From the IMG/VR virus record IMGVR_UViG_3300025652_000032, positions 1 to 64,000 of that record: DNA of 64,000 nt. One strand, given 5' to 3'. The position numbers and the translations under genes are program-made. Shown one piece after another: positions 13,363-35,948 of the stretch. This stretch comes from a virus. Numbering within the stretch: position 1 is the stretch's first letter; each line of letters starts with the position of its first letter. Below the pieces are notes generated by a model that saw only the letters and a list, made by a program, of their open reading frames with translations, ran no database searches and was not told the DNA's origin.

Positions 13363-15297
13363 TCAGTTTGTTAAATCTACGATTTCACAAGAGTTGCCTG
13401 TACATGCAAATGTTTGTGTTCCAGCGGTCTGATCTTCCTTCTCGTACTCTCCGAGGCCAGACCAATCGATGTTTTCTGGAAGCGTCTTCAATAGTTCATT
13501 GTACTCTTCCTTGGTACAATCCTGATATGGTGCTTGTCTGTATGTGTGATCTGAGAATGGAAGGAATGAAACTCCTGACATCTCGTTGAAGTGATCGTAT
13601 ACCCATGCACCAACTTCCATCCATTCGTCTTCCTTAACGGAAACCGTGATAGAAGGTTTGTGTTCACACCAATGTCTCTGGTATGTCAACCAAAGTTCAA
13701 GTTGTTCGATGGCAGTCAGATCCGTTCTACAAATCGCCTTATCAGGTGACTTCTGTGGGAACGAGAAAACCATCGTGTGTTCTGGTTTCATTACATCTGG
13801 TTCACATGGGAAACCCTTTTCCTTCATGAACACACACAGAGGATCCTTGATATCCGCACGGACAGTGCGAACGTAATAAGGATTGTGTCGAGCATGAATA
13901 CCAGATGCAGCATCAACCAACTGTGAAACTGTTCCACTTGGTTTCACGCAAGTGATAGCAGCAGATTGGTTGATGTGTAGTTTCTTTGCCCATGTCTTGT
14001 TGACATCAACAGAATGGGACTTGAGATCTTCTAGGGTTCCTGCAAGTTTACCGTTGGTAGAACCATTGAGTAATGCGTTGTCCATGATACCCGTGAGAGA
14101 AACACCAAGAAGTCTTTCTTCTTCGCAGTTCTTCGTCCACTCACTAGACAGGTACTTAAAGTTCAGAAGGGTAGACTGCCATGTTCCGAGGATCGTTGCA
14201 AGACGAACCTTTTCCTTGAGAGTCTTTATTGTGTCATCAGCACGAACGACAACTTCTGTTAGATTACAGAACTCACGATCACGCAAGATGATTTCGCTGC
14301 ATGGGTTGGTTCCGAAGTTGTAGTTTGGATCTCGGCGTTCGTCAACAATCTTCTTTACCTGATCCTGACACGCAGCACGACTAAACATACCTCTCTCGCC
14401 ACTCTTTGACTTATAGAGAGACAACCACTCTTCCATGAACGTACCAATTTCGGGTGTACTCTTATATGCAACGGAGTTGTTTGCAAGGGCCCGTTGTGCG
14501 TTGTGTTCCCACCACTGTCCAGTCTTTGCATCTCTCATTCGTTCATCAGTAAGTGAAGACAATGAGATAAGAGCAGATCGACGGACACCACCGACTACAA
14601 CAATTTCAGCAATCTTGCAGATGATATCGTGGCACTCGACGGTAGTGAGTTTTCTGCCTGCGGCCTTACGGTAAGTCTCTACCGTGAATTGGAAAAGATC
14701 CTCAAGAGGTTGCGGTCCAGATGCTCTGCCGCCGAATGTCTTGAGTCTTGCTCCAGCAGGACGAACTTTACTTGTGTCCCATTGTGGTACTTGACCACCA
14801 ATGAGTAGCGAGGTGAGTTCTTTATAAGACTTTGCCCATCCCATCTTGGAATCACCGACGACAATGACTGTATCACTCGCATCAAATTCCTCTGCAATCG
14901 TTGGAAGTCTGTCTACGACATCACGTTCTACGCTAAAACCCATTCCTGTCCCGCACATGAGAACGTAGAGGATCTCATCGAAGGAACGAGGACGACTCGC
15001 TTCGCAGTATGCACAGTTGTACCCTGCAATATTGTCGCGTCTCAGTGCCTCACCGGCAGTCATCAACGCTCTCATGGAAGGCATGATCTTGAGTTCACGA
15101 ACTGCTTTTTCGAGTTCGTTCCTCTGATCTTTCGTTACCTTGAAATTACATTCTTCCTTGAGATGAGTCTCAAAGAAATCAAAATATCTGGCAACTGTTT
15201 CGGGCCAGGTCTCTCTGCGTCCTTCTTCTTCCAACCAACGGGAATACCGTGATAGGTGAATAAAAGACTGGTATAGCGTGGGTAATTCATCACACAT
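13363..15297 (-). CDS. nrdJ: Adenosylcobalamin-dependent ribonucleotide reductase, class II
   Basis: 644 residues from ATG 15297; the GTG at 15309 overlaps the GAGGAG ribosome site and is less likely. The chain carries the class II reductase set: YNCAYCEA (first active-site cysteine, about residue 97), GTGMGFSVER, VGGVRRSALISL, GTNPCSEIILRDREFCNLTEV (thiyl-radical and partner cysteines with catalytic Asn and Glu), CVKPSGTVSQL and a C-terminal CTGNSC redox pair spaced as in Lactobacillus triphosphate reductase. It is single-subunit and about 100 residues shorter than that enzyme. It needs B12 from the host, makes dNTPs for replication and works without oxygen. A consensus sigma70 promoter precedes it and the porin follows. 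Confidence 0.93.
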   Translation of the reverse strand: MCDELPTLYQSFIHLSRYSRWLEEEGRRETWPETVARYFDFFETHLKEECNFKVTKDQRNELEKAVRELKIMPSMRALMTAGEALRRDNIAGYNCAYCEASRPRSFDEILYVLMCGTGMGFSVERDVVDRLPTIAEEFDASDTVIVVGDSKMGWAKSYKELTSLLIGGQVPQWDTSKVRPAGARLKTFGGRASGPQPLEDLFQFTVETYRKAAGRKLTTVECHDIICKIAEIVVVGGVRRSALISLSSLTDERMRDAKTGQWWEHNAQRALANNSVAYKSTPEIGTFMEEWLSLYKSKSGERGMFSRAACQDQVKKIVDERRDPNYNFGTNPCSEIILRDREFCNLTEVVVRADDTIKTLKEKVRLATILGTWQSTLLNFKYLSSEWTKNCEEERLLGVSLTGIMDNALLNGSTNGKLAGTLEDLKSHSVDVNKTWAKKLHINQSAAITCVKPSGTVSQLVDAASGIHARHNPYYVRTVRADIKDPLCVFMKEKGFPCEPDVMKPEHTMVFSFPQKSPDKAICRTDLTAIEQLELWLTYQRHWCEHKPSITVSVKEDEWMEVGAWVYDHFNEMSGVSFLPFSDHTYRQAPYQDCTKEEYNELLKTLPENIDWSGLGEYEKEDQTAGTQTFACTGNSCEIVDLTN

Positions 15298-15341
15298 AAT
15301 AAGTGTCACTCCTCTGAATTTTGTATATCAATAAGTTATGT

Positions 15342-20236: not shown

Positions 20237-20244
20237 TATTTATG
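20237..20244 (-). promoter_or_regulatory. Late promoter variant (CATAAATA) for the fibre module
   Basis: CATAAATA on the minus strand overlaps the thyX stop codon and lies 20 bp before the ATG at 20217. It would switch the fibre genes from the upstream early/middle operon to late transcription. Confidence 0.65.
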
Positions 20245-20956
20245 CCGTGAGATACTTCCACGATTCGCGGAAAAGGGGTTGAATTACCCTACCAATCGTC
20301 GCCGCGTATTCTCGAATCTCCCATTGTGCGTGTTCATCGATGCGTTGCTTATAGAATCTTGCATACGCAGCAAGAGAACCCGTCCAGAACCATTCCGTGT
20401 ACATTCCCTGCGGGAGAGCGAATCGTGCTTGCTCTGGAGCGACTCCATTACGAAGTAGTTCATTGTATGTATACATTGCAAGACGCATCACATTATCAAA
20501 GTTCTTCTCTGCCTCAGGATGAACCGAAATGAAGTCATCACTGCCTTGTTTTGCTCCATCTGTTGGTTTCCCTCGCCATGATGGGTAGTAAAACTCTGGT
20601 TCGAACGAGACATAACGACGAGAGATCTCATTTTCAACAAATCCTTGCTTGTGCTTGAAGAACTGAGTTCGGATCGACACGGGTGCCTTGATCCTCAGCG
20701 TGATTTGAGGATGTGCAAACGGCGTCCAATGATTATGAGTTGCAAGGTAACGGATCAACTTCTTATCACCATCACACAGATCCCTTACGTCTTCGAGATG
20801 GTATTGGGATCCACTTTCGGCAAGTCGGGTGACTGCTGCTTCGTCTGTACACCAATCACTTTCTTTATTGAATGAAACTCTCGCTGCATTGCAAACGGTC
20901 AAATCACTTCCCATGTGATCGACGAGTTGAACATGTCCTCTATCTAAAACTCTCAT
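20240..20956 (-). CDS. thyX: Flavin-dependent thymidylate synthase
   Basis: 238 residues from ATG 20956, which has AAGGA nine bases upstream. ThyX makes dTMP from dUMP using FAD and folate. The signature region reads FKHKQGFVENEISRRYVSFEP. The second half of the ThyX motif (NExSxRY) is intact, while the RHR and serine of the first half are replaced, as I recall for other phage ThyX proteins. THNHWTPFAHPQITLRIKAPVSIRTQ and LPQGMYTEWFWTGSLAAYARFYKQR supply the substrate-binding and C-terminal parts. It starts 4 bp after the phosphate-permease gene and ends at the late promoter of the fibre module. Together with nrdJ and dut it supports thymidine nucleotide supply. Confidence 0.9.
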   Translation of the reverse strand: MRVLDRGHVQLVDHMGSDLTVCNAARVSFNKESDWCTDEAAVTRLAESGSQYHLEDVRDLCDGDKKLIRYLATHNHWTPFAHPQITLRIKAPVSIRTQFFKHKQGFVENEISRRYVSFEPEFYYPSWRGKPTDGAKQGSDDFISVHPEAEKNFDNVMRLAMYTYNELLRNGVAPEQARFALPQGMYTEWFWTGSLAAYARFYKQRIDEHAQWEIREYAATIGRVIQPLFRESWKYLTA

Positions 20957-20960
20957 GATA

Positions 20961-21905
20961 TCAATCCTTAATATTTTGAACAATTAGTACGATAATAACA
21001 GATGCTGCCAATCCAACCATTAACTTCAAGAAATCTTTCCCTACAATCGGGAACACTTTCTTGATACCATCTTTCTGACGGAAAGAGGCAATGGCAAGTT
21101 CTCTACCAGTAAGAAGTCCGACGAACACCCAAGTTGTTGACATAGGAATGTCGTTTACTTCCTTGAAGATGTATAGTATAACAAAGTAAAAGAGATCAAT
21201 CAAGGTTGCAGATCGAACATATTTCGTATTTTTCTTCTGTACTACGATCTCCTGAATCCTACCACCTCGGTGCTGAAGCATCCATGCAAGTCCACCAACG
21301 AACACGGCGGAGATTATAAACATCACTTCAACTGGAATCTGTCGTGGAAGATATACGGCGATGTTTGCCATATCATGACTCAACCATGTCCACCAAAGGA
21401 ATCCTGTGGTTATCCACTGAGCAATCATCCACTTTCGTTTATTCGATTCTTTGATACTCTTACCTTCATCGATCAGGCGAGTGAGCATCAACCAGATGAA
21501 ATATGCGGCAACACCTGCAACAGCATACCCAAGCATCGACTTCATCAGAACCTTCTGTAGCACCAGTGTTGATGCAAAGGCAGAAAGCACTAGGAATGAA
21601 GTAGAAACGGGAACACCGAAACGGGTCAATACAAGAAGCACTGCTGGGGCCAGTGCTTGATACCATTCTACTCCCTCAAACGGAATCTTGTTGAGTCTTC
21701 CGTAAGATATATCTCCGTCGTATGCCCACCAACCATACCAGATGGCAATAAGAAGCACAGATGAGGCGTATGCCCACATGATCTTCCAATTTACCTTTTT
21801 GTTACTCGCAATCCAAGTTCCGAGAGTCTGGATCGAATCATTTGCAATCACACTGTATGCGGCGAGGAGAAACCCTACCCACATCCATACTGAAATTTCA
21901 GACAT
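20961..21905 (-). CDS. PiT-family phosphate transporter-like permease
   Basis: 314 residues with about eight hydrophobic spans and no signal peptide, so an inner-membrane protein. The two inverted PiT repeats are visible. The first signature is VIANDSIQTLGTWIASN near residue 20, with its partner VPVSTSFLVLSAFAS near 98. The second is SHDMANIAVYLPRQ near 175, with its partner IPMSTTWVFVGLLTG near 252. PiT proteins carry metal-phosphate by ion symport. It is shorter than typical bacterial PiT permeases but keeps both halves. It lies between the primase and thyX genes, 1 bp after the primase stop, so it is expressed with the replication genes. Substrate inferred from the family. Confidence 0.82.
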   Translation of the reverse strand: MSEISVWMWVGFLLAAYSVIANDSIQTLGTWIASNKKVNWKIMWAYASSVLLIAIWYGWWAYDGDISYGRLNKIPFEGVEWYQALAPAVLLVLTRFGVPVSTSFLVLSAFASTLVLQKVLMKSMLGYAVAGVAAYFIWLMLTRLIDEGKSIKESNKRKWMIAQWITTGFLWWTWLSHDMANIAVYLPRQIPVEVMFIISAVFVGGLAWMLQHRGGRIQEIVVQKKNTKYVRSATLIDLFYFVILYIFKEVNDIPMSTTWVFVGLLTGRELAIASFRQKDGIKKVFPIVGKDFLKLMVGLAASVIIVLIVQNIKD

Positions 21906-21906
21906 T

Positions 21907-22959
21907 CTATACTCGTCTCCATTGATTTAGTTTGAGGGTTGCTCTCATACCAGTGAACGTGTTGTCGTTGATAACCTTCTCGATTGTTCGAGTTGATTTA
22001 TTGTATGCCATGTCATTGATATCCTTCTCCTTGATAGCAGAAGGCCAAATACAAATTTTCTTGCCGAGTTCGATCAGTCTTTCGTTATATCGAACTATCT
22101 GAATGTTTCTTGGTTCATTGTCTAATACATAAACACCATCACTGTGCTTGAGATGTGCTGGGATTTGATCAAGTGCGCCGGCACCAACCATTGCAATTGA
22201 GTTACGCAAGAATAGACTATCGAGAGGGCCCTCTACGATGTAAATTGTTTTCTTTGGATTGACTCTCCATTGTCCATACCACAGTCGATCAGAAGACTTG
22301 TCGCTCTTTACTGTGAGATACTTGACAGTTCGTCTTCGATTGGCATCATCTTTGAAATTGATGGAACGTCCTTGTGCTGCTACAACTTCCCCATCCTTGT
22401 TGAAGAACGGTATGACAAGTCTGGGTTCTACTCCCACTATATCATAACGATCTGGATCAATTCTTTTCATGAATGATCCGAAGTTATCTGTGTAATATAA
22501 CTTGTCCCAGTGTTCCTTTGGAATACCTCGCATGTTGACAAATTCAACACACTGATGATCTTTGGGCAATTCCTTGATACAAGGCACACCCTTCAGAATT
22601 TCTGGTCTGGGTTTTGGATTTGGTTTCGAAAACTTAAACATCTCTTTTTCCTTCGGTTTTATATAGTTAGACTTACTCGTCTCTCCATTCTTCCACCGCT
22701 CTAGAGAATACTCTTTCATTAAGTTAGGGGCAATCTGTTCAAGTAATCGATACAAAGAAAAACTTGCATCACAATTGTGACACTTGTAAAAGAAGTCGGT
22801 TCCCTTCTGAAAGAAGAACCCACGGGCCTTGTTCTTGTTTTTCTTTGAATCACCACAGATGGGACATCTGCAATTCGCCAGATTATCTCGCTTCCAAGCG
22901 AATTTTTCTAGTTGAGGTGACAGAAAATTAATAAACTTCTTATCAATATACGTTGACAT
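21907..22959 (-). CDS. 61: DNA primase, T4 gp61-like
   Basis: 350 residues, starting at ATG 22959, which overlaps the helicase stop as TGATG; an in-frame ATG 12 bases upstream is less likely. The N-terminal zinc ribbon has CRCPICGD and CHNCDAS. The TOPRIM core carries IYIVEGPLDSLF followed by GVYVLDNEP, giving the acidic catalytic residues. It makes RNA primers for lagging-strand synthesis with the gp41 helicase. Length matches T4 gp61 (342). Confidence 0.93.
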   Translation of the reverse strand: MSTYIDKKFINFLSPQLEKFAWKRDNLANCRCPICGDSKKNKNKARGFFFQKGTDFFYKCHNCDASFSLYRLLEQIAPNLMKEYSLERWKNGETSKSNYIKPKEKEMFKFSKPNPKPRPEILKGVPCIKELPKDHQCVEFVNMRGIPKEHWDKLYYTDNFGSFMKRIDPDRYDIVGVEPRLVIPFFNKDGEVVAAQGRSINFKDDANRRRTVKYLTVKSDKSSDRLWYGQWRVNPKKTIYIVEGPLDSLFLRNSIAMVGAGALDQIPAHLKHSDGVYVLDNEPRNIQIVRYNERLIELGKKICIWPSAIKEKDINDMAYNKSTRTIEKVINDNTFTGMRATLKLNQWRRV

Positions 22960-24365
22960 CAAACATTCCATCCAGCAAATTTCTGCTTGAACGAGTCCTC
23001 ACCAAATCCATTACCATACTCTGTATCTTCTGTTAGATTAGTATCTACCAATCCAGTTTGCTCATTCGGATCCACATCAAACAGTTTCATCTTCGCACGG
23101 TTAATGCCGACCACAAATTTCTTGTTGGTAACAACATCATTATACCTGTTCTTCAACTGCTTGATCATCATCTGATTTGCTTCTTCTAGTTCTTCAGTGG
23201 AAATCAAAGCAAACATCAAATCTGCCGTTGCTGGCAATCCGAATGACTCGGACGTATCTTCAAGTCCAACATCACTGTTGTTGAATCCAGATCGGTTTGT
23301 TTGTGTTGCTGAGAAAACTGGAACATTCCTTTCAACTGCAAGACCGCGAAGTTCTTCTGCGATGGCCTTGATATATGTGTAGGAGTTTACATTTGCATTT
23401 TGCTTCATTCGTGACGAAGCACAGATATTTAGGTAATCGATGAAGATAATATCAGGAATAAACTTCTTTTTTAGTTTCAGTTCATCGAGCAATGCCCTGA
23501 AGTGATTTGCATGTGCTGTGGCAGTAGGGTATTCCTTGACGATCAGTTTACCCGTACAACCCTGAGTTGCAGTTTCCAACTTCTTGTCGTAGATTTGCTT
23601 TGGTAGTGACTTCATGTCATCCATAGTGATGTCCATGAGGTTGGCATCGATACGTTCTGCAATCCGTTCTTCTGCCATCTCGCATGTGATATACAGTACG
23701 TTGTTGTTTTGTGAAAGACACGCTGCTGCATGATGACACATAAACAAAGACTTACCCACACCAGTACCGGCAAGAATCATGTTCAGTGTCTTGTTTGGTG
23801 TTCCGCCTTGTGTGATAGTGTTGAACATCTCAAGATCAAATGGGATTTTAGATTCCGTCTTGTGGTAGAATTCATAGCGTTCGTCGGCATCTTCGATGTA
23901 ATCATGTCCGATGTGAGTATCAAAGGAAACCGAGAGGGCCTCTGATAGGATTTCTGGTATGGCGTTTTCTGTTTGTGTTTCGTTCTTACCATCGATGATG
24001 TGGATCGACTCCATAATGGCATTGTAAACTGCTTTGTCTTTACAGAACTTTTCACTCTTCTCGTACAACCATTCATCATCCTGTTCAGTGAACGAATCAC
24101 ACAGATCATTCAACACTTCAACACATGAATTGAATTGATCTTGTGTTAGGTTCTTTTGGTTATCCAAAGAGATGACAATCGCCTCTTTTGTGGGACGATT
24201 GCCATACTCTAGGATAAAATCTTGAACAGACTTGAACAGAGTCTTTTCTACGATGTCGTGAAAATACTCGCCGTGCAAAAACGGCACGGTCTTCCGTGAA
24301 TACTCCTCATTCAGAATTAGGTTCTGAAGGATTAGTTTCTCTACGGTATTGTTCTCTTGATTCAT
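22959..24365 (-). CDS. 41: Replicative DNA helicase, T4 gp41-like (DnaB family)
   Basis: 468 residues, close to T4 gp41 (475). The N-terminal about 150 residues form the helical primase-interaction domain. The C-terminal RecA-like motor has Walker A LAGTGVGKSLF (about residue 203), Walker B IIFIDYLNIC and the DnaB-type H3 region VPVFSATQTNR. It forms a hexamer that unwinds the fork and recruits gp61. The start overlaps the upstream small gene by 59 bp, which is long but the N-terminus aligns with the family. Confidence 0.94.
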   Translation of the reverse strand: MNQENNTVEKLILQNLILNEEYSRKTVPFLHGEYFHDIVEKTLFKSVQDFILEYGNRPTKEAIVISLDNQKNLTQDQFNSCVEVLNDLCDSFTEQDDEWLYEKSEKFCKDKAVYNAIMESIHIIDGKNETQTENAIPEILSEALSVSFDTHIGHDYIEDADERYEFYHKTESKIPFDLEMFNTITQGGTPNKTLNMILAGTGVGKSLFMCHHAAACLSQNNNVLYITCEMAEERIAERIDANLMDITMDDMKSLPKQIYDKKLETATQGCTGKLIVKEYPTATAHANHFRALLDELKLKKKFIPDIIFIDYLNICASSRMKQNANVNSYTYIKAIAEELRGLAVERNVPVFSATQTNRSGFNNSDVGLEDTSESFGLPATADLMFALISTEELEEANQMMIKQLKNRYNDVVTNKKFVVGINRAKMKLFDVDPNEQTGLVDTNLTEDTEYGNGFGEDSFKQKFAGWNV

Positions 24366-24747
24366 TGGAAGAGTCTCTCATTTCCTCAATTTCGGATTTC
24401 ATCTTGGCGACAGTTGACTGCATTTTCTCGTCGAACTGTTCTTCCTTATATTCTACCACATCTTTAGGGTTTTGCAACTCTTCTTCCATGATTTCGCACA
24501 AAACATCTCCCATATAATCAATGAGGTCGCCGTTGTCCTCGGTCTTTACTTCATGTGGATTCTCAAGAATCTCAAACTGAAAATTCATGATCATCTGTCC
24601 CTCGTTCTCTTTGAACTGTACCAGTCCGTATCGATATACAAGGTCCTTATAATCCCCATCAGTTACCTTGAGGGCGCCTTCGAGTAGTTCGTCTTCTGAC
24701 TTGTACTCGATAAATTCGTATGTATCACTGAATGCTATCTTCGACAT
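24307..24747 (-). CDS. Acidic hypothetical between uvsX and gp41 (position of T4 gene 40)
   Basis: 146 residues from ATG 24747 (MSKIAFSDTYEFIEYKS), overlapping the uvsX end by 23 bp. The chain is strongly acidic, with YRYGLVQFKENEGQMIMNFQFEILENP in the middle and a charged helical tail from about residue 95. T4 has gene 40 in this location, but I see no clear similarity to it. I recall marine T4-like phages with a small gene here. Its location inside the replication operon suggests an accessory role in replication or recombination. Confidence 0.7.
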   Translation of the reverse strand: MSKIAFSDTYEFIEYKSEDELLEGALKVTDGDYKDLVYRYGLVQFKENEGQMIMNFQFEILENPHEVKTEDNGDLIDYMGDVLCEIMEEELQNPKDVVEYKEEQFDEKMQSTVAKMKSEIEEMRDSSNESREQYRRETNPSEPNSE

Positions 24748-25789
24748 TTTCTTCTTCCTTTTCTTGAATTTCTTCTTCGATGCCGTATTTGAATTCCTTT
24801 GCAACGGCAACTTCCATTTGCTTCATTACCTCCGGTGTGAAATACTTCTCGGGGGTTTTGTATAGAACCTTCTCGAAAACCTTACTTCCGTCTGGCATTT
24901 CCAATCGAGTAGAAACCTTCTTGAAGATCTCGTACTTAATGGCAATCTCGACAAGTCCATAGTATGGATTCAATCCCTCATCATAGTTGAGCATGACATC
25001 AATCATCGAGTTCTCTTTGGTCATTCGTCCCTTGAAGAGTTTACAGTGAATGATATTTCCGATGATATCGGTTCCTTCTTTCACCTTCTTCTTTGTGAGA
25101 TATATGATAGTCGAAGCAGCATACTTTAGTCCAGAACCACCACCCATAGTCTTCATCGGGAACATAGAACCAACGACATCATAAGTATGATTTGTCATGA
25201 TCAGAGGAATTCCTGCCTTGCCCAACTTGAGTGTAAGGACTCGGAAGGTTGCTTTGATTACTTGGGCCCGAGTCATATCTTTCGTACCCTTTCCTTCTGC
25301 TGTGTCTTCCATCTCTTTGGCAGTCGAAAGCATACCAAGCGAGTCAAGACAGATAAGCATTGGTTTCTTATCCTTCTTTGCAAGTTCAAGGTAATTGTCT
25401 ACAACCGTAATTGCTTGGTGACGGAAGTCCTCTACAGTGGCAACAGGGAAAACTGCAACGCGATCCGGATCGCATCCACGATCCTTGAACATGTCAGAAG
25501 TTACTGCCTGCTCGCTGTCAAAATACAGAACAACACCATCAGGGTTATCACGGAGAAATTTATGTACAATGCCAATCGTAAAGTACGTCTTACCAGTTGC
25601 ACTTTCGCCAGCGATCGCAAGAATTTTATTATCAGGTATACCCCCGTACAAACTGCCAGAAAGCAGAGCATTAAAAGCATAAGACCCAGTATCAACGAAC
25701 CCATCTACATCTGCTCCTTCTAAACCATCTGCAACAACACTTGCATACTTGTTACCTGTCTTGCCAATCATTTCATTAAGAAAACTCAT
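24725..25789 (-). CDS. uvsX: UvsX RecA-like recombinase
   Basis: 354 residues from ATG 25789, with GGGAGA upstream; the frame is open for 15 more codons before that. The RecA core shows Walker A GESATGKTYF (about 58), the Walker B strand MLICLDSLGML, MTNHTYDV (L2-region equivalent) and GGGSGLKYAAS. It forms filaments on single-stranded DNA for recombination-dependent replication and works with UvsY (57192-57629). The acidic tail (EEEIQEKEEENVEDS) resembles that of T4 UvsX. Confidence 0.94.
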   Translation of the reverse strand: MSFLNEMIGKTGNKYASVVADGLEGADVDGFVDTGSYAFNALLSGSLYGGIPDNKILAIAGESATGKTYFTIGIVHKFLRDNPDGVVLYFDSEQAVTSDMFKDRGCDPDRVAVFPVATVEDFRHQAITVVDNYLELAKKDKKPMLICLDSLGMLSTAKEMEDTAEGKGTKDMTRAQVIKATFRVLTLKLGKAGIPLIMTNHTYDVVGSMFPMKTMGGGSGLKYAASTIIYLTKKKVKEGTDIIGNIIHCKLFKGRMTKENSMIDVMLNYDEGLNPYYGLVEIAIKYEIFKKVSTRLEMPDGSKVFEKVLYKTPEKYFTPEVMKQMEVAVAKEFKYGIEEEIQEKEEENVEDSIQ

Positions 25790-25985
25790 TGTGTAATCTC
25801 CCAATATCTTCTTGTGCTTCACGCAATTTTTCACGCCGTTTCATTTTATCTTCCAATACGTCCTTCGGACAACTCTTGTCTTTCATGAGGAATTTTATAC
25901 TCCTCCCAAGATCATCTATTCTATCAGAAATTAAATTATGTGCAACCTTCAATGTTGCATGTTCAAGTTCCACTTTCAACTTCAT
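25776..25985 (-). CDS. Small helical hypothetical between glnII and uvsX
   Basis: 69 residues from ATG 25985, with GAGG nine bases upstream. It overlaps the glutamine-synthetase end by 23 bp and the uvsX start by 14 bp. The chain is almost all charged helix (LKVAHNLISDRIDDLGRSIKFLMKDKSCPKDVLEDKMKRREKLREAQEDIGRL), likely a coiled coil. I do not recognise it. The tight overlaps on both sides argue that it is a real coupled gene. Confidence 0.65.
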   Translation of the reverse strand: MKLKVELEHATLKVAHNLISDRIDDLGRSIKFLMKDKSCPKDVLEDKMKRREKLREAQEDIGRLHNEFS

Positions 25986-27051
25986 GCTCAACCTCTGCCT
26001 CATCGCCGCCGCGGATCGCGGCCACTGGTACTTGTTGCAATACACCAATGATAGATGTAAACGCCTGATATGGATCCATGTTTGCCGCGGGTCTTCGATC
26101 TTCGAGATGTCCGCGTTCTTCGTTTGCAGTATCCACAGGAATTCGAATAGACTTGGTTCTATCCGAAACACCATACGAGAAGTCCTCGATATGTGCAGTC
26201 TCATGCTTTCCTGTCAGTCGAAGATTATTGTCTTCACCATACACACGAATCAGTTCAGGATGATTACCGAACTCATCACAAACACTTTCCAGATATTCTA
26301 TACTGGATGACCTTGCCATACGCATGGATGGAGTCGAGAAGTTGATGTGTGCGCCCGAACCGTTCCAGTTACCGGTCTTTGGTTTGGGGTGGAGACTAAT
26401 GGAATACTTATATCTTTCACTAATCAGTTCTGCCATATACCTTGCCATCCAAAGTTGATCAGCAACGGTTAGTGCGTCCATGTATCCAACCTGATACTCC
26501 CACTGTCCGAGCATGACTTCGGCGTTTGCACCTTCGATCGGAACTCCCATTGTCTTACAGACTGCATAGTGTTCGTTGACAAAGTTTCGGCCGACAGTCC
26601 GCATTCCACCGACACCACAGTAGTACGGACCTTGTGGTCCGGGTGTACCCTGTTCCCACCCAAGAATAGTACCGCTTTCGGTGTTGTAGATAACATACTC
26701 CTGTTCGACTCCGAACCAGTAATCTCTGGTTTCTGGATTATCTTTGAGAGTCATGCGAAGAGGCGCACGGTAGTTTGTTTCGTGTGGTGTCTTTCCGTCT
26801 GAGTTGAATACTTCACAGAACACAACAAAGGTTTCCCACGGTGTTTTCGAGAGACTATACGGTCGAAGGATCAAATCACTTTTGTGTGGATCTGCCTGAT
26901 TACAACTCGATCCATCAAACGACCATTCAGGAATCATTTGGAGATTCATACTCTCCTGATCATCTTCTACTTCAATCAACTTAGTCTTACTACGAAGTTG
27001 TGGTGTGATGTTTCCATCCAACCACACATAATTTACTTCAATCCATTTCAT
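25963..27051 (-). CDS. glnII: Glutamine synthetase, type II (eukaryote/GlnII-like)
   Basis: 362 residues from ATG 27051, eight bases after AGGAG. Signature segments in order: PEWSFDGSSCNQA, WFGVEQEYVIY (two metal-binding Glu), PGPQGPYYCGVG, GANAEVMLGQWEYQVG (metal-binding Glu), KTGNWNGSGAHINFST (ammonia/metal His), RLTGKHET, SIRIP and EDRRPAANMDPY. All active-site residues that I can place are kept and the length fits GlnII (about 350), not the about 470-residue bacterial GlnA. It joins ammonia to glutamate using ATP. It sits between DNA polymerase and uvsX in the replication operon. It lacks the adenylylation-site region of GlnA, so it would escape that host control. Confidence 0.93.
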   Translation of the reverse strand: MKWIEVNYVWLDGNITPQLRSKTKLIEVEDDQESMNLQMIPEWSFDGSSCNQADPHKSDLILRPYSLSKTPWETFVVFCEVFNSDGKTPHETNYRAPLRMTLKDNPETRDYWFGVEQEYVIYNTESGTILGWEQGTPGPQGPYYCGVGGMRTVGRNFVNEHYAVCKTMGVPIEGANAEVMLGQWEYQVGYMDALTVADQLWMARYMAELISERYKYSISLHPKPKTGNWNGSGAHINFSTPSMRMARSSSIEYLESVCDEFGNHPELIRVYGEDNNLRLTGKHETAHIEDFSYGVSDRTKSIRIPVDTANEERGHLEDRRPAANMDPYQAFTSIIGVLQQVPVAAIRGGDEAEVEHEVESGT

Positions 27052-27061
27052 TCTGTATCTC

Positions 27062-29572
27062 CTATGCAAAAAAGGATTCTAGTGTGTTAACTTTTTCTGT
27101 GTTCCATCCAACCACGTTGAGAATGTTTTTCAGTGGATCGAGGAAACTTTTATCAAACTGTAGATCATAGTTTACAAACCTGTGTATGTCAAGTTCTTTT
27201 GGTAGACTGTTCGGGAAGGCGATAACCTGATCGTTCGTTGGGTTTGGAACCTTGAGATAAGTGAACTTGATCTTATCTCCCTCGACGATTGATCTGTATT
27301 TTCTAGACAACCCGCTGTTCTTGATCATCCTATTATATATCAGAGATCCCTTGACTGCGATTGGTGTACCCTTTGCGTAAACAGTGTTACTGTCTTGATA
27401 CTTCTCCATGCCAGACACGGAACGCGGGAACGAGATCTCCTCGGGATCGAGTTGATTGAATTCATCCCGGAACTCCTCGATGAACTGAATGATAGTGTCC
27501 TCGTCCGTGGACATGATCAACCCGATCACCTCCTTGAGTTTTTTACGGACGATCGCAGGAGTTGAACTCCGACTCGTCTCGATACCCATGATCTTGAGTT
27601 TCGGTTCGGCGTACCGAACACCTTCGGAGTCGAACACATTGAGCATGTACCGTTTCTTGGCAGTCCAGATACCCTTGTTCGCAATGACTTCTCTACCCAT
27701 CACCATCTTGTTGGTGTATGCATTCATCAGACGAGAGAGTCGATTGTACTCCTTCTCGATGAATGGTTCGATGATCTTCTCACACGAATCATCAAGGAAA
27801 TCTACGATGGATGTATCGTCCTTCTTCTTGCAAACCTTGTCTACCAGATCACCAAGACCAATGTACACACTGTCTGTGTCACTTGCGATAATGTAGTCTT
27901 TGTCATCGGAGTCGAGAGCATTGTTCAGGAACTTGTTTAGTGAATCCTGAATCCAGCGAATACTCAACTGCCCGGACAAGGTGATTGCTTCTGCCATATC
28001 GACATCGAAGTAGCGGAAGTATTGATTACCAATCGCACCATAAGCAGAGTTCAATTGAATCTTACGAACCAACTGGAAGTTGTTGAACTTTGCAATCTGG
28101 TAGTCTAGTTCCCGATTGTCGGGATCTTTCTCCTTCTGCTTCTGACATTCAATCATCTTCTTCTTGTACATGCTACGTTCTTCGTACATCTTCTCCATCA
28201 ACGCAGGGAGGAACCCCTGAACGTCTCGACGGTAGCACGTTCCGTTGGCAGCGATCGAGTAGTCTTTGCTCTTGTGGTTGAGCAAGGCCTTCTTCGGACG
28301 ATCACTTCCCTCAAGGATACCATTAGGCGTAATCATGTAATCTTTGTCCTGTTCGATCTTCGTCTCAGGACTGATGTTGTATTGCATGATCAAGTGGGGA
28401 TACAGACTGTTCAAGTCGAAAGACACAACCCAGTCGTGTTGTCCTACGATTGGATCCTTAACATACGCACCAGCGAATTGTTCATCCTTCTTGGAACCAG
28501 ACTTCATTGGAATCACAATGTTCTGTTCCGACAGATAATGATAGATGATCTGATCCCACGTTCGAACTTGGGAGAACACATCCTCGAAGTTTACCTTGGC
28601 GGAATACGCAAGTGCCAATGAGAGTTCGATGAGTTTGAGTTTCTCCTCCAATCGAACGATCAGTTCCACATCTTTGACATTGTACTCGACAAACTTCTGG
28701 AAGTCCTTCTTGTAGAACTCCGCCATACTGTCGAACTCGTCGTAGGATAGTTTCGCATCACCCAGTTCGACGTTGGCAATGTGATCCAGTCGATACGACT
28801 CTTGGTTGATATAGGTGAAGTTTCTGTAGAGATCAAGATAGTCAAGAACAGAAACACCCATGATCTGGAAAGTCTCATGCTCTCGATTCATTCGTTGGAT
28901 CGTCTTTGATCGGATCTTCTTCCACGGGGAAAGAAGGTTCACTTCCCGCTCACCCAACACGCGAATCATTCGGTTGACAAGGTATGGGATATCAAAGAAC
29001 TTAATGTTCCATCCGGTCACGATGTCTGGATGATCCTCATTCCACAATTCCAAGAATGTGCGGAGTAAATCCTCTTCGTTGTCGAATGAGTATTGCTCGT
29101 ACTCTTCCGGCAGATCGAACTCACCAAGACCGAAAACGAAATACTTACCATCAAGGCAGTATGTGATCGTGATCACTTCTTCGTTGGGATCAGATATCTG
29201 CGGGAATCCACCTTCACATGTCGTCTCGATGTCGATGGTGGCAATCTTGATCTTGTCGATGTCATAATCGACTTCTTTGGGAAAGATGTCACCAATGAAC
29301 TGATACACATAGTCAGTGTTGCCGTAGACTTGGAACCCTTGGACTCCATCATACTTACGAACAAACTCCCGACAGTCTGAAACTTGTCCGGGTTTGATCG
29401 GTTCGACAAACTTACCGTCCAACGTGCGATACTTAGTTTTCTCGTTTGATGGAAGGAAGAGTGTCGGGTTGTATTTTTCTCGAATCTGGGTGGGTTGTCC
29501 GTCTTTGATTCCTCGGTAGAGGATGTAGTCGCCAATCATTGACACGTTAGTGTAGAAGAAATCACTCGGCAT
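27062..29572 (-). CDS. 43: DNA polymerase gp43, family B
   Basis: 836 residues (T4: 898). The exonuclease domain has IATIDIETTCEG (Exo I, about 110), VTGWNIKFFDIPYL (Exo II) and VEYNVKDVELI (Exo III). The polymerase domain has FDLNSLYPHLIMQYNI (motif A), KIQLNSAYGAIGNQYFRYFD (motif B) and IASDTDSVYIG (motif C). The C-terminus (NTLESFFA) resembles a clamp-binding peptide. It is a proofreading replicase working with the gp45 clamp. It overlaps the next upstream gene by 11 bp and glutamine synthetase follows. Confidence 0.97.
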   Translation of the reverse strand: MPSDFFYTNVSMIGDYILYRGIKDGQPTQIREKYNPTLFLPSNEKTKYRTLDGKFVEPIKPGQVSDCREFVRKYDGVQGFQVYGNTDYVYQFIGDIFPKEVDYDIDKIKIATIDIETTCEGGFPQISDPNEEVITITYCLDGKYFVFGLGEFDLPEEYEQYSFDNEEDLLRTFLELWNEDHPDIVTGWNIKFFDIPYLVNRMIRVLGEREVNLLSPWKKIRSKTIQRMNREHETFQIMGVSVLDYLDLYRNFTYINQESYRLDHIANVELGDAKLSYDEFDSMAEFYKKDFQKFVEYNVKDVELIVRLEEKLKLIELSLALAYSAKVNFEDVFSQVRTWDQIIYHYLSEQNIVIPMKSGSKKDEQFAGAYVKDPIVGQHDWVVSFDLNSLYPHLIMQYNISPETKIEQDKDYMITPNGILEGSDRPKKALLNHKSKDYSIAANGTCYRRDVQGFLPALMEKMYEERSMYKKKMIECQKQKEKDPDNRELDYQIAKFNNFQLVRKIQLNSAYGAIGNQYFRYFDVDMAEAITLSGQLSIRWIQDSLNKFLNNALDSDDKDYIIASDTDSVYIGLGDLVDKVCKKKDDTSIVDFLDDSCEKIIEPFIEKEYNRLSRLMNAYTNKMVMGREVIANKGIWTAKKRYMLNVFDSEGVRYAEPKLKIMGIETSRSSTPAIVRKKLKEVIGLIMSTDEDTIIQFIEEFRDEFNQLDPEEISFPRSVSGMEKYQDSNTVYAKGTPIAVKGSLIYNRMIKNSGLSRKYRSIVEGDKIKFTYLKVPNPTNDQVIAFPNSLPKELDIHRFVNYDLQFDKSFLDPLKNILNVVGWNTEKVNTLESFFA

Positions 29573-29882
29573 CTTTGTCCTTGATATACGCAGAAAGTAG
29601 AACCATATAGTTAATCACATCGAGGCATGTATCTTGGAAAGACTCGTCCTTAACGTGCATCTTACCAGATTGTACGAAGGAACTCAAGCGACTCATCTTG
29701 TCTGTTAGTCGAACCATAAATCCCTGTTCAGTATTGCAGATGCCCATCGCCTCACAACGAGTGAAGTTTGCAAATGGTTCTTCACCACCGCTACCGGCAT
29801 AGTCACGATTCTTGAGGTTCATCAGTTCTCTTGCCTGTGTAGATAGTTCGGCATGATGTTTCAGTAATTCATCTCTAGTCAT
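29562..29882 (-). CDS. DUF1599-type protein (nucleotide-modification-associated, MazG-like helical fold)
   Basis: 106 residues. LMNLKNRDYAGSGGEEPFANF, then VRLTDKMSRLSSFVQSGK, then ESFQDTCLDVINYMVLLSAYI form the pattern of DUF1599 proteins, which have an all-helical MazG-like arrangement with acidic metal-binding residues (E and D in the second and third segments). Relatives occur in phages and have been linked by context to nucleotide handling. It overlaps dut by 8 bp and gp43 by 11 bp, consistent with nucleotide-pool cleanup. Confidence 0.78.
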   Translation of the reverse strand: MTRDELLKHHAELSTQARELMNLKNRDYAGSGGEEPFANFTRCEAMGICNTEQGFMVRLTDKMSRLSSFVQSGKMHVKDESFQDTCLDVINYMVLLSAYIKDKDAE

Positions 29883-30393
29883 TCTTCACTCCAGTGCTGC
29901 CGAATCCACCGATACGTTCGAGGTTTTCATCCTGAACTGTATCCACTTCCTCGAAGGAAAAGTTTATACGTTCACAGACCTCGCCCTGACAGATTCTGTC
30001 TCCATGATTAATTTTGAAAGGTTGTTGTGTTGTATTATGAAGCAATACGAAAACTTCCTTCCGGTAGTCTGCATCTATTATACCCTGTGAATTTGCTAAT
30101 GCAACCCCATTCTTCAAAGAAATTCCAGAACGTGCATGAAGACGAACAGAATAATTATAAGGCATAGAGAAAGCGAATCCAGTAGGCACCAGTATTCTCT
30201 CTCCTGCTTCCAACGTAATGCCGTCTTCCGAACACGGGACATCAAAGGCAGAATTAAACCTATCGTAAATAGTCACCATCTGTTTGTCCGGGACATAGGC
30301 ATGGATATCAAAACATGCCGATCCAGAGGTGGCGTGACTAGGCATAATAACATCATCATGTAGTTTTTCGATTTTCACAATTGTCGCGTTCAC
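29875..30393 (-). CDS. dut: dUTP pyrophosphatase
   Basis: 172 residues. The five trimeric dUTPase motifs are present: SACFDIHAY, ARSGISLKNGV, GIIDADYRKEV, GDRICQGEV and the C-terminal RIGGFGSTGV. It hydrolyses dUTP to dUMP, protecting phage DNA from uracil and feeding ThyX. The start is a GTG at 30393, which overlaps the upstream stop (GTGA) and has AAGGG nearby; a second in-frame GTG at 30378 is an alternative. An extra loop at about residues 38-58 makes it longer than the usual 150 residues. Confidence 0.93.
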   Translation of the reverse strand: MNATIVKIEKLHDDVIMPSHATSGSACFDIHAYVPDKQMVTIYDRFNSAFDVPCSEDGITLEAGERILVPTGFAFSMPYNYSVRLHARSGISLKNGVALANSQGIIDADYRKEVFVLLHNTTQQPFKINHGDRICQGEVCERINFSFEEVDTVQDENLERIGGFGSTGVKND

Positions 30394-31646
30394 TTCTTAC
30401 CCTTTCTCTTTTTGTATGAATTCTTCTTGCGGACTTCTTTGTCCTTCTTTTGCTTTTGTACCTCTACTTCTGCTTGTCGCTGTTCTTCTCTCTGCTTGTG
30501 TAGTTCCTGAACCTTCAGTGAATACTGACGGTGGTTCTCAAGCATACGGGTGTGTTCCGACTCGGGATAGTGCCTTTCACTGACGAGTTTCTCCATCACA
30601 TGGAACCCAACCTCGAAGTCATGACAGTAGAATGCAGTCGCACCCAGTTCATCAAGTGCCTGCCACTTGTATACTTCATCCGCGAGGAATAAAATGTCAC
30701 CATGTGGATAAGGTAGAGATGCTGCTTGCTTTGCATAAAGATATGCTGCCCTTGGCATGTTGTTCATGCGATACATCCGAGAAATCTGATGTAGAGGTTC
30801 TGCACGGATCGGTCGATAGTCATACGCCGCCATATACTTGTGTGCTTGGACATCGATCGGTTCATTGAGTAGAGAAGAACAAATTGCTACACGGAATAAC
30901 GCATAGAATGCTTCCTCTTCCCAACCGCCGAGTTCAGCACGTTTTTGATATGCTTCTGAGGCCTTCGTCCACTGTTGTGAATCGAAATAACTCTGCCCGA
31001 GATAGAACCAATATCTATGATTATCTGGTTCGTCCTTGAGTGCTTCTTCCAGAACCTCTGCATCTCTACTGTACTTTTGGATCGGTTCAATATCGACGTT
31101 TCGGTTTCCTTCTGTTCTTGCCTCAATGTGGTAGTCACCATCGATACGCATTGAAGTGATTTGCTCTCCCTCTGGAGCATTACAGTGGGCATACTCATGC
31201 AAGATACCCGAATACTTCCAACCCATATGAAGTTTGAAGACTTGGTTTCTCCACCATGTAAAATCACCGCGATGGATTTTCAGTGAGTATGAATGAGAGT
31301 CCATGACTTCTGGCCAATGGAAATTACCAGCGATAGAATCATCTGCATCAATAACCCATGCATACTCAGCATCACTCTTCTCGGCATTGTGGAGTGACTC
31401 GGTGCGTGATCCCATCTTACCGGCGTGATCACCAAATCCCTTCCAGTCAGACTGATGAACTTCACCGGGGATTCCCTTTTCATCAAAGAACTTCTTGATG
31501 ATGTCCTGTGTGCCATCAGTCGATCCGGTGTCAGTGATATCATACCTATCGATGTGAGGATAGCAAGACTCCAAACACCTTTCAATGCAGTGGTGTTCGT
31601 CCTTTACAATCATACAAAGGGTAATTTTTGGGCGTGAGTTATCCAT
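30390..31646 (-). CDS. Family 2 glycosyltransferase with TPR-like C-terminal part
   Basis: 418 residues from ATG 31646 (TGATG overlap with the epimerase gene). The N-terminal GT-A domain starts ITLCMIVKDEHHCIERCLES, contains TDTGSTDGTQDI and the nucleotide-sugar/metal motif VIDADDS. After about residue 190 come helical repeat pairs (YWFYLGQSYFDSQQWTKASEAYQKRAE) like TPRs, and a highly charged coiled tail ending KKRKGKK. Such GT2-TPR proteins transfer sugars to surface or other acceptors. It is the downstream end of the sugar gene island, next to dut. Confidence 0.82.
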   Translation of the reverse strand: MDNSRPKITLCMIVKDEHHCIERCLESCYPHIDRYDITDTGSTDGTQDIIKKFFDEKGIPGEVHQSDWKGFGDHAGKMGSRTESLHNAEKSDAEYAWVIDADDSIAGNFHWPEVMDSHSYSLKIHRGDFTWWRNQVFKLHMGWKYSGILHEYAHCNAPEGEQITSMRIDGDYHIEARTEGNRNVDIEPIQKYSRDAEVLEEALKDEPDNHRYWFYLGQSYFDSQQWTKASEAYQKRAELGGWEEEAFYALFRVAICSSLLNEPIDVQAHKYMAAYDYRPIRAEPLHQISRMYRMNNMPRAAYLYAKQAASLPYPHGDILFLADEVYKWQALDELGATAFYCHDFEVGFHVMEKLVSERHYPESEHTRMLENHRQYSLKVQELHKQREEQRQAEVEVQKQKKDKEVRKKNSYKKRKGKK

Positions 31647-32527
31647 CAATTCATCTCCAGTTCATTTTTTATCCAATCCCCAAGAGAAGTTTCAGGGGAC
31701 CAGTTCAATTCAGTTTTAATTTTATGAATGTTCGCAAGAGTGGAAGTGACTTCACCTTTTCTCTGCTCTATATGTATTTGATTTTCTGAAATCATATCAG
31801 CAATTTCTTTCACTGAATGATTTACACCAGAACCAACATTGTAGATTCCGCCTTTGATATCAGAATCTGCCATCATTATATTGGCACGAACCACATCAGA
31901 GACATTAACGAAATCCCGTTTCTGGTTTCCCGTTCCAACAATCTCTAGAGGAAGATCGTTCTTATACCTCTCGATGAAAATTGCAATCACTGGAGGATAT
32001 GCTCCATCGACACGATGTCCGTTTCCATACACGTTGAAGTAACGAAAGGTGTTTACATTGAGATCGTTGCTGTAATACTCACACAATTGTTCAGCACAAT
32101 ATTTTGACAGTGCATAGGGATTCAGTGTTGGTTTTAGATGAGAAGACTCACATTGAATTAGGTGATCACACTCATACACGGCAGAGGTAGAGGAAAAAAC
32201 AACGCGATCCACTCCGCATTCTTTTGCCGTTTGTAAAACTCTATTTGTCCCTAGAATATTTTGTCTGGTTGTATGAACCGGATCTTTCAGTGAAACCTGA
32301 ATGCTTGCTTCTGCTGCCATGTGAAAGATCGTGTCTACATTGTAGCGATCAATAACTTCGGTGAGTAGAGGAACATTGTTGATAGAACCAACATAATTTT
32401 TAGCATCTGGGTGCCAAGTTCCGTGAGCGTTCTTGTCCAAACAAACAACTTCTCTTCCCTCAGAAAGAAGAGTCTGGACTAAGTTGCTACCAATAAATCC
32501 GGCACCACCTGTAACTAAGTAACTCAT
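31646..32527 (-). CDS. NAD-dependent sugar-nucleotide epimerase/dehydratase (GalE-like)
   Basis: 293 residues. Extended short-chain dehydrogenase: GGAGFIGSNL binds NAD, FSSTSAVYE and YALSKYCAEQL provide Ser and the YxxxK pair, and RYFNVYGNGHRVDGAYPPVI is the substrate side typical of UDP-glucose 4-epimerases. It probably interconverts UDP- or GDP-hexoses for the adjacent glycosyltransferases. ATGA overlap with the methyltransferase gene upstream. Confidence 0.85.
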   Translation of the reverse strand: MSYLVTGGAGFIGSNLVQTLLSEGREVVCLDKNAHGTWHPDAKNYVGSINNVPLLTEVIDRYNVDTIFHMAAEASIQVSLKDPVHTTRQNILGTNRVLQTAKECGVDRVVFSSTSAVYECDHLIQCESSHLKPTLNPYALSKYCAEQLCEYYSNDLNVNTFRYFNVYGNGHRVDGAYPPVIAIFIERYKNDLPLEIVGTGNQKRDFVNVSDVVRANIMMADSDIKGGIYNVGSGVNHSVKEIADMISENQIHIEQRKGEVTSTLANIHKIKTELNWSPETSLGDWIKNELEMN

Positions 32528-33207
32528 TTCGGGCCCTCACAAACGTATGTCACCTTGTAATCAGAAGAAGTTGCAATCTGATCACTGAAACTCTTGTATA
32601 CTTTATAATAGAATCCCACCGAGGAGAGAACTGTTTCCAGTTCTTCATTTGTCCATATCTTATGAGTCACTGTATACGGCGTCTCTCGGAAAATTCCATT
32701 CAACTTCATCGTGTTGTTGGTGTAGTCAGTTTCCGGGATTAAGGTTAACTCGGGAGTATATACCTCTCGGGGTTCATCCTCAACAAAAGCGTCATGATTA
32801 AAACAATCAAATACAAAAATACCGGAAGACTCTAGTTTGAGTGATACTGACTCCACAAAGGATTTGAGTTCTTTCATGTCACGAATGTGATTAATCACAT
32901 TGAATAAACTTACCACAAGAGGAACTCTGACACTAATATCAGACACAGTGCCAATGATCAAATGTGGATTGTATTTCTGTAATTTGTCTCTTGCTATTTC
33001 AATCATAGACGAGGAGGGATCTACTCCATGAACTTCATATCCTCTCTTACAAAATTCTTGCAAGTGACTACCAGTTCCACATCCAATATCCAGAACCTTG
33101 GTTTGAACGGGATCAAGATCGATAACATAATCTACCTCACCAGAGTAATCTTTCTGTGAGTGTAAACTATCGTAAATGGAAACTGATATGTTGTTGTACT
33201 CAGACAT
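32524..33207 (-). CDS. SAM-dependent methyltransferase, class I
   Basis: 227 residues from ATG 33207. VLDIGCGTGSHLQEF is the SAM-binding motif I, VHGVDPSSSMIEIAR motif II, and VVSLFNVINHI follows at the motif IV position. The rest (FVFDCFNHDAFVEDEPREVYTPE) resembles small-molecule or sugar methyltransferases. Flanked on both sides by sugar epimerases, it probably methylates a sugar. Overlaps the upstream gene by 8 bp. Confidence 0.82.
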   Translation of the reverse strand: MSEYNNISVSIYDSLHSQKDYSGEVDYVIDLDPVQTKVLDIGCGTGSHLQEFCKRGYEVHGVDPSSSMIEIARDKLQKYNPHLIIGTVSDISVRVPLVVSLFNVINHIRDMKELKSFVESVSLKLESSGIFVFDCFNHDAFVEDEPREVYTPELTLIPETDYTNNTMKLNGIFRETPYTVTHKIWTNEELETVLSSVGFYYKVYKSFSDQIATSSDYKVTYVCEGPK

Positions 33208-34126
33208 TAGAATATTGATTATCAAACTTAATTACAGAGATTCCTTGTGCCAGTTCGGAGATACCAGAATCCAGATCGATTGTAGTGTCAAACCCAAGAG
33301 AAGCGATCTTATCGTAAGACACAACATAGTCTCTCTTGTCGGCATCCTCGCCAATATCTGCAAGATGTAGGAAGTATGGAACCACCTCGTTAATCTTTTC
33401 GCATACCTCTTTCTTGCTAAAGTTCATCTTATCACTACCGACATTATACACATTACCAATCATCTTGTCAAGATTTTCAAGGGCAAACATGAAAGATCTT
33501 GCGATATCATAAACATGAATAAATGTCCGCATGAAGTGTGATTCATACACAACAATGTATCTGTCTTTCACTGCCTTCTTTGTAAAATCATTCACAAGAA
33601 GATCTAGTCTAAGTCTCGGTGAAAGACCAAAGGCAGTAGCAAACCTATAAGCAACAGCGTTTGAGTTGTTCATAATATACTGCTCTGCTTCTGTTTTTGT
33701 TGTGCCATAAATACTTAACGGATTGAGTGGACTTTCCTCGGTACAGATGCCGTCCACTCTACCATAATTACTTCCAGTAGATCCAAACAGTATGATCTGA
33801 TCGTCGTTCAGCATGTCAACCAAAGACTTAGTTGCCTCTAAATTCACAGCGGTAGTGATCGCATGATCTTTTTCGCAGGCGGGATACCCGACGATCGCAG
33901 CGAGGTGAATTACAACATCCTTACCCTCGACAACAGATCTCAACTTCTCAGTATCTCTAATGTCTCCCTCGACGAGACTGAAGTTTTTGTTCTTAAAGTG
34001 TGGGAACATACTATTCCCACCGAAAAGTAATGCGTCGTAAACACATACTTCATGTCCTGCGGCCAGTAATTCTGGAACTAAAGTGCTTCCAAGATAACCC
34101 GCACCACCCGTCACTAAAATTTTCAT
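33200..34126 (-). CDS. NAD-dependent sugar epimerase/dehydratase
   Basis: 308 residues of the extended SDR family: GGAGYLGSTLVPELL at the N-terminus, VVIHLAAIVGYPAC, FGSTGSNYGRVDG, then SIYGTTKTEAEQ with the YxxxK pair. Its closest general type is the bacterial surface-polysaccharide NAD-epimerase. It overlaps the DUF2061 gene by 4 bp (ATGA). Together with the other SDR genes it points to synthesis of an uncommon deoxysugar. Confidence 0.85.
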   Translation of the reverse strand: MKILVTGGAGYLGSTLVPELLAAGHEVCVYDALLFGGNSMFPHFKNKNFSLVEGDIRDTEKLRSVVEGKDVVIHLAAIVGYPACEKDHAITTAVNLEATKSLVDMLNDDQIILFGSTGSNYGRVDGICTEESPLNPLSIYGTTKTEAEQYIMNNSNAVAYRFATAFGLSPRLRLDLLVNDFTKKAVKDRYIVVYESHFMRTFIHVYDIARSFMFALENLDKMIGNVYNVGSDKMNFSKKEVCEKINEVVPYFLHLADIGEDADKRDYVVSYDKIASLGFDTTIDLDSGISELAQGISVIKFDNQYSNV

Positions 34127-34332
34127 ATTGTTTGCCTTCCCATTTTTATTTTGTTCCAGATTCTTTCGTAAAAATAGTAAACGAAAAATCCGGTAAGATT
34201 CATTAACAATGCGTTCATTAGTGCCTCACTAGAAACACCAGATAATAAAACCAAGTAACTATTCAGTATCGCAACAATCCTCCAAAGGATAGTTTTTGTT
34301 ATACTTCGAGTTTTGGTTTCCTTGAATGACAT
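34123..34332 (-). CDS. DUF2061 small membrane protein
   Basis: 69 residues from ATG 34332 (TGATG overlap). The N-terminus KETKTRSITKTILWRIVA is the hallmark of DUF2061 membrane proteins, followed by two hydrophobic spans (about 20-38 and 43-61). Bacterial relatives are sometimes found with sulfur or sugar activation genes. Here it lies between sugar-modifying genes. Function unknown; it could anchor the pathway at the inner membrane. Confidence 0.75.
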   Translation of the reverse strand: MSFKETKTRSITKTILWRIVAILNSYLVLLSGVSSEALMNALLMNLTGFFVYYFYERIWNKIKMGRQTI

Positions 34333-34829
34333 CAGCGTCCTATGACCGACCAATCAATAACATATGGATCAATTCTTAAATCGTCATTCATTGCTTCCTC
34401 GAACCGAAGATTGCTGAGTGATGTAAGAACAGTTCTATCTTCAAGACTAATCCAACCATTAGCATACAACGGAGGGACATACAAGACTGCATGATGTCGA
34501 TCACTCATGATAAAAGTCTGAACACTATCTGGATTGTCTTTGGCATACTGGGCAATCTCTTCTCTATCATTTCGATCAGCAACTTCCTCTGGAAGTTTGA
34601 GTGTCTGGAATTTTGCGGCACCACATGCGATAGTAAAAATCTTGGCCTCTAATTTGTGATAGTGCAGTCCCCGGATAACGCCTTTGCCGTAGTCTCCAAC
34701 AACATAACACCTACGAAAAAGTTCGTGATCAATGTCGTCAGTGATCGGTACTAGATAACCCCGATCATCTGATATCGATGGCACCTTTAGTAAAGTTGGT
34801 TCTGTAACACCAGAGTGAATTTTGTACAT
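34332..34829 (-). CDS. RmlC-like cupin, sugar-nucleotide 3,5-epimerase or ketoisomerase
   Basis: 165 residues. RGLHYHKLEAKIFTIACGAAKF is the RmlC core strand with the catalytic histidine region, and VLYVPPLYANGWISLED is the second conserved block (YiPxGfAHGF in RmlC). The N-terminal ISDDRGYLVPI also fits. These enzymes epimerise or isomerise dTDP-4-keto-6-deoxyhexoses. Directly upstream is a DegT aminotransferase, the usual next step for amino-deoxysugars. Start at ATG 34829, two bases after the aminotransferase stop. Confidence 0.82.
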   Translation of the reverse strand: MYKIHSGVTEPTLLKVPSISDDRGYLVPITDDIDHELFRRCYVVGDYGKGVIRGLHYHKLEAKIFTIACGAAKFQTLKLPEEVADRNDREEIAQYAKDNPDSVQTFIMSDRHHAVLYVPPLYANGWISLEDRTVLTSLSNLRFEEAMNDDLRIDPYVIDWSVIGR

Positions 34830-34831
34830 TA

Positions 34832-35947: not shown

Positions 35948-35948
35948 T

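Follow-up and report, generated by a model that had tools for sequence, protein, structure and literature searches.

Viral type II glutamine synthetases (GS) have been known since 2007, when the GOS survey described them in ocean metagenomes (PMC1821046). Later reports add that moraphages encode GS (PMC12619734) and that viruses putatively infecting SAR86 carry GS as an auxiliary metabolic gene (PMC10721903). The latter gene is an auxiliary metabolic gene of marine Caudoviricetes, as the present one is proposed to be; the passage on it gives no type, clade or gene context. The huge or jumbo phage records LR756501-LR756503 and LR745206 hold a type II GS, like the phage studied here, and the huge-phage sequences tested fall in clades other than that of the present enzyme. 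Unlike the present case, the accessible portions of the GOS and huge- or jumbo-phage descriptions include no T4-like group, operon context or relocation of the gene. A search of openly available literature other than preprints found no T4-like GlnII clade, relocation or thioredoxin-GS fusion.

Two further systems serve for comparison. Bacterial GlnII and eukaryotic GS (PDB 4bax, 3fky and 2d3a) share fold, length, both domains and all active-site residues with the phage enzyme, which differs from them in being only 44-51% identical and in belonging to a phage-only clade. The nucleotide-supply genes of T4-like phages (ribonucleotide reductase, thymidylate synthase, dUTPase) occupy the same replication and dNTP block as the GS gene; unlike their products, GS does not act on nucleotides and makes the nitrogen donor for their precursors.

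Genomic context of the GS gene

The DNA analysed here (the window, 64,000 nucleotides) comes from a linear IMG/VR virus record of 128,029 bases, of which it makes up the first half. The genome carries T4-like markers, namely the gp23 major capsid protein, UvsW, clamp loader, polymerase, UvsX, replicative helicase, primase and sliding clamp. The closest named polymerases are those of cyanophages (about 55%), and for the capsid protein there are matches of 56-57% in cyanophages, pelagiphages and methylophages. The B12-dependent ribonucleotide reductase NrdJ is similar to those of Puniceispirillum and Roseobacter phages (64%), which weakly hints at an alphaproteobacterial host. Assigning a host from the GS tree failed, since the window GS sits on a long branch and has a mixture of cellular groups as its nearest neighbours.

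A first-pass annotation, made from the letters of the window, had placed a type II GS at positions 25963-27051; the coordinates hold and the strand is corrected to minus, with the GlnII-like reading frame running from an ATG at 27051 to a stop at 25963 (362 aa) and the plus-strand reading interrupted by stops. All genes of the surrounding block lie on the same minus strand. Directly upstream is a T4-like family B DNA polymerase (27062..29572; PHROG 262, 1091 bits), the TAG stop of which overlaps the first two bases of the AGGAG ribosome-binding site of GS (27059..27063; TAGGAGATACAGAATG), a junction that is the same in L255 and L257. The polymerase gene has a GC3 of 0.58 versus about 0.42 in its neighbours. 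Further upstream in the block lies a dUTPase (29875..30393; PHROG 135, 174 bits). Downstream follow the UvsX recombinase (24725..25789; PHROG 97, 289 bits), a gp41-like replicative helicase (22959..24365; PHROG 19, 412 bits), a gp61-like DNA primase (21907..22956; PHROG 47, 240 bits), a PiT-like phosphate transporter (20961..21905; named from a PHO4 match that is weak, with E 0.0012, and does not reach the curated cut-off), the flavin-dependent thymidylate synthase ThyX (20240..20956; PHROG 85, 208 bits) and, at a greater distance, NrdJ (13363..15309; PHROG 367, 634 bits, with Pfam RNR matches).

The GS gene is packed gap-free into this block of polymerase, uvsX, helicase, primase and thyX, and the earlier description of a GS inside the replication operon is borne out. 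Its position between DNA polymerase and uvsX is likewise correct as to both neighbours; left unmentioned was a small ORF of 69 codons (25776..25985, minus), which overlaps the 3' end of GS and the start of uvsX and so separates the two. This ORF has no PHROG match, and the polymerase-uvsX interval of relatives contains an ORF of similar size.

A divergent type II enzyme with an intact active site

The protein matches the NCBIfam GlnII model with 331 bits (E 5.8e-99) over residues 5-335, in agreement with the full-length enzyme that had been proposed, and scores 67 and 65 bits against the type III and type I models, respectively, which places it with the eukaryote/GlnII type and not with GlnA, as the first-pass annotation had it. 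The top PDB match is yeast GS (291 bits), followed by animal, plant and Streptomyces type II enzymes. The NCBIfam equivalog NF041605, the naming rule for bacterial GlnII, has a curated cut-off of 500 bits, above the 331 bits obtained, and the Pfam N-domain score is slightly below its own cut-off; the protein is therefore regarded as a divergent type II GS outside NF041605. Type II GS is not subject to adenylylation. Consistent with the claim that the adenylylation control region is lacking, the C-terminus is short (362 aa versus about 468 for GlnA) and the alignment to GlnA ends near residue 375.

Nineteen site positions, which we take to be the catalytic, metal, ammonium and nucleotide positions from the known structures of the yeast, maize and Streptomyces enzymes, were compared by alignment. 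All 19 are the same in the window GS as in these three enzymes, and all are also kept in the 31 other T4-like phage GS; the active-site segments are thus intact, as previously suggested, and the alignment revealed no loss of catalytic residues. Residues D46, S49, Y144, E178, E185, R278, E284 and R319, which in solved GS line the ammonium and substrate sites, are invariant across the whole T4-like clade. More broadly, 91 of 102 columns that are at least 97% conserved among 83 cellular GlnII are kept. The eleven altered near-invariant positions include D228N, R209L and G299T, which lie near the 19-residue set and not within it. At residue 315, next to the conserved EDRRP motif, solved enzymes have Tyr, where the window GS and 13 of 31 relatives have His, and the GSGAHINFS motif of the window GS carries A234 and I236, which are rare or absent in cellular enzymes. 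Because of the eleven changes and the long branch, the kinetics of the enzyme may differ from the usual.

An AlphaFold model built on an alignment of the window and locus sequences has a mean pLDDT of 89.9, with residues 345-362 disordered. The structures that it resembles most in fold are type II GS throughout (TM 0.88 to 4bax of Streptomyces); on this model, a GS fold is predicted with confidence. Between variants of the same species cluster, dN/dS is 0.06–0.09 for GS and 0.03-0.05 for the polymerase, a close value; the GS protein is thus under strong purifying selection. Codon use and GC of the gene resemble the rest of the phage.

Phylogeny and gene slots of the phage GS

In trees that include cellular GlnII and other viral GlnII, the window GS groups with about 30 GS of related T4-like phage contigs in a single clade made up of phage sequences only (support 97 SH-aLRT in one tree, 100/98 bootstrap/SH-aLRT in another and 100/99 with rhizobial GlnII added); the relatives were gathered by similarity to the window GS, whose long branch (0.9) makes its placement within the clade loose. 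The phylogeny proposed at first pass, spanning cellular and viral GlnII, hence groups the window GS with T4-like phage GS and apart from cellular GlnII. A recent single transfer from a host is ruled out by the phage-like codon use and by the place of the gene in this deep phage-only clade. Other viral GlnII, including huge-phage sequences, fall into several separate clades, from which it appears that phages probably acquired GlnII more than once.

The same gene order was found on six other contigs, 96-100% identical, with GS at the polymerase-uvsX junction (the GS-uvsX side only in L006), and this identical arrangement excludes an assembly chimera. Beyond this near-identical group, the search for homologues at the same locus gave a different picture: GS was present at 4 of 80 related polymerase loci, all of the window cluster (at least 97% polymerase identity), and absent there from the other 76 T4-like loci (58–67% polymerase identity). 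In most GS-less relatives in which uvsX was located, the interval contains a small ORF or an HNH-like gene or is empty.

Scans based on the GS alignment revealed GS in many related T4-like phages at other slots, refuting both a fixed polymerase-uvsX slot and the window phage as sole carrier. In a second arrangement GS directly follows the primase (primase-GS-thyX-nrdJ, followed in some phages by a porin-O/P-like gene), in the slot where the window phage has its PiT-like gene, and the GS of this arrangement form a single sub-clade (support 98). A third slot lies between the gp46/gp47 block and gp45/gp44, and a fourth, seen once (L284), downstream of the clamp-loader region. The T4-like clade therefore occupies at least four slots, each of them in the company of genes for replication, recombination or dNTP supply. 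Because related viruses carry the gene elsewhere among their DNA-copying genes, GS is an old virus gene in the T4-like group and no lone recent acquisition.

When 45 T4-like records were searched in full, 12 of them, including nine picked for having GS, proved to hold a single copy; records of 142 and 157 kb contained none. GS is thus an accessory gene. Among 2,611 phage records with this polymerase family, only five have any type II GS match and none of the five is a named T4-like phage, in line with the earlier statement that GS is not part of the T4 core. As a homologue of a cellular enzyme that is non-core, absent from most relatives and flanked by T4-like genes on a 128-kb record that also encodes gp23 and UvsW, the gene is a candidate auxiliary metabolic gene.

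A second phage lineage, the replication proteins of which are very different (helicase 24-32% identical), also carries GS beside a ribonucleotide reductase gene; here GS mostly follows the reductase gene directly (L298, L299, L309, L320, L324 and L325; farther away in L286) and often precedes the DNA polymerase. Since this lineage is unrelated, GS seems to have become associated with DNA-precursor genes on two or more occasions.

Thioredoxin-GS fusions in sister phages

Some members of the T4-like clade have a longer GS ORF, of about 470-510 aa, in which a thioredoxin-like domain (with CGWC and, further on, TPLF) precedes GS and a proline/glutamine-rich linker connects the two. Such fusions lie, among others, in L281 (743-2173), L289 (6691-8127), L294 (790-2232), L302 (4738-6168), L312 (5508-6944) and L277 (8623-10065). 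The fused domain has weak Pfam Thioredoxin and Glrx-like matches (E 0.0006-0.009) and weak PDB thioredoxin matches, and its predicted order, at moderate confidence, is beta-alpha-beta-alpha-beta-beta-alpha. Neither 80 bacterial GlnII loci nor 83 loci taken from the first viral scan and from huge phages contain such a fusion. A scan with the domain itself returned 39 viral loci (L340-L378), of which 28 are fused to GS and 11 have another C-terminus.

In those eleven loci (L349, L352-L354, L357, L359, L360, L370, L371, L375 and L378) the domain sits in an ORF of 172-230 residues with a different C-terminal part, on contigs without T4-like matches. The window GS is unfused, and neither tblastn with the fused domain nor the Pfam Thioredoxin model recognised a thioredoxin in the window phage genome. 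Such fused proteins offer a natural, and unusual, connection of nitrogen assimilation with redox state.

Proposed role and alternative explanations

The explanation we favour, and judge to be fairly likely, is that a catalytically competent type II GS has become a phage gene that supplies glutamine for nucleotide synthesis in marine T4-like phages. From the observed gene, fold, intact active site, selection, clade and location we infer its activity, the timing of its expression and the destination of the glutamine. The phage GS would be produced together with the replication proteins and would convert glutamate, ammonium and ATP to glutamine; because the GlnA adenylylation region is absent, it could stay active once the host enzyme is shut down. 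Glutamine is the nitrogen donor for purines, CTP and GMP, and the glutamine made would enter their synthesis; with the phage NrdJ, ThyX and dUTPase, the resulting nucleotides would feed the dNTP supply for phage DNA. GS would thus probably supply nitrogen for building viral DNA. No recognised PII protein and no class-II (GATase_6) glutamine amidotransferase is present in the window phage genome, so use of the glutamine would depend on host enzymes. A more far-reaching form of this explanation, in which GS is a phage-specific working part of the DNA-precursor machinery, free of host control, expressed with the replisome and, in the fused sisters, physically tied to redox chemistry, either for reducing ribonucleotide reductase or for controlling GS by redox state, is regarded as doubtful. 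The replication-gene neighbourhood may also reflect early expression only, and not use in nucleotide synthesis.

An active GS could instead be mainly regulatory, raising glutamine and lowering glutamate and 2-oxoglutarate so that host PII/NtrC sensing is reset and the host appears nitrogen-replete. GS activity is expected to shift the signals read by bacterial PII systems. PII genes have also been reported in marine viruses (PMC8115048). The window phage, however, lacks a PII gene, and the repeated linkage of GS to ribonucleotide reductase, ThyX and polymerase favours nucleotide supply over signalling, leaving a mainly regulatory role unlikely. It is less likely still that the glutamine or glutamate serves mainly the sugar-modification cluster at 30-44 kb, even with a DegT/DnrJ/EryC1 aminotransferase (34832-35989, 368 bits), epimerases and a glycosyltransferase-like protein nearby: DegT-type aminotransferases mostly use glutamate, which GS consumes, the GS gene remains with the replication genes, and most sister GS loci have no DegT homologue in the flanks covered.

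The long branch and the eleven altered conserved positions could also fit a GS-fold ligase that joins another acceptor (e.g., a polyamine or another amine) in place of ammonia, and GS-like gamma-glutamyl ligases do exist. The invariance of the ammonium- and substrate-site residues across the T4-like clade, together with 331 bits for type II GS versus 26 bits for gamma-glutamylputrescine synthetase, renders this quite improbable. Many relatives manage without GS, as would be expected of a passenger gene with no role in infection, yet the intact active site, a dN/dS of 0.06-0.09 and the persistence of one clade through several relocations already disfavour this reading, which is given very little credence. 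Returning to glutamine supply for nucleotides, the surface ocean is largely nitrogen-poor and phage DNA is nitrogen-rich. Phages have retained one GS lineage through several rearrangements, always near genes for replication and dNTP supply. This suggests that phage DNA synthesis can be limited by nitrogen assimilation, and that phages bring along an enzyme for it that is beyond host control.

Other genes of the phage

The PiT-like membrane protein (20961-21905, minus) has no match in 50,697 phage records. Its gene is 95% identical in L012, the polymerase of which is only 67% identical, and absent from the close relatives L002-L004, so that it moves between phages. A gene of the phosphate-selective porin family (porin O/P-like, 12313-13338, minus) adjoins nrdJ and is kept beside it in several GS-bearing relatives; with the PiT-like gene, it hints at phosphate uptake. 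The replication half of the genome also contains a long minus-strand run of epimerase, methyltransferase, DegT aminotransferase and glycosyltransferase-like genes (30390-43966). Finally, a threonine-dehydratase-like protein (49954-50718, minus; PHROG 7093) is 74-82% conserved in L259 and L262-L266, where it is encoded directly upstream of GS.
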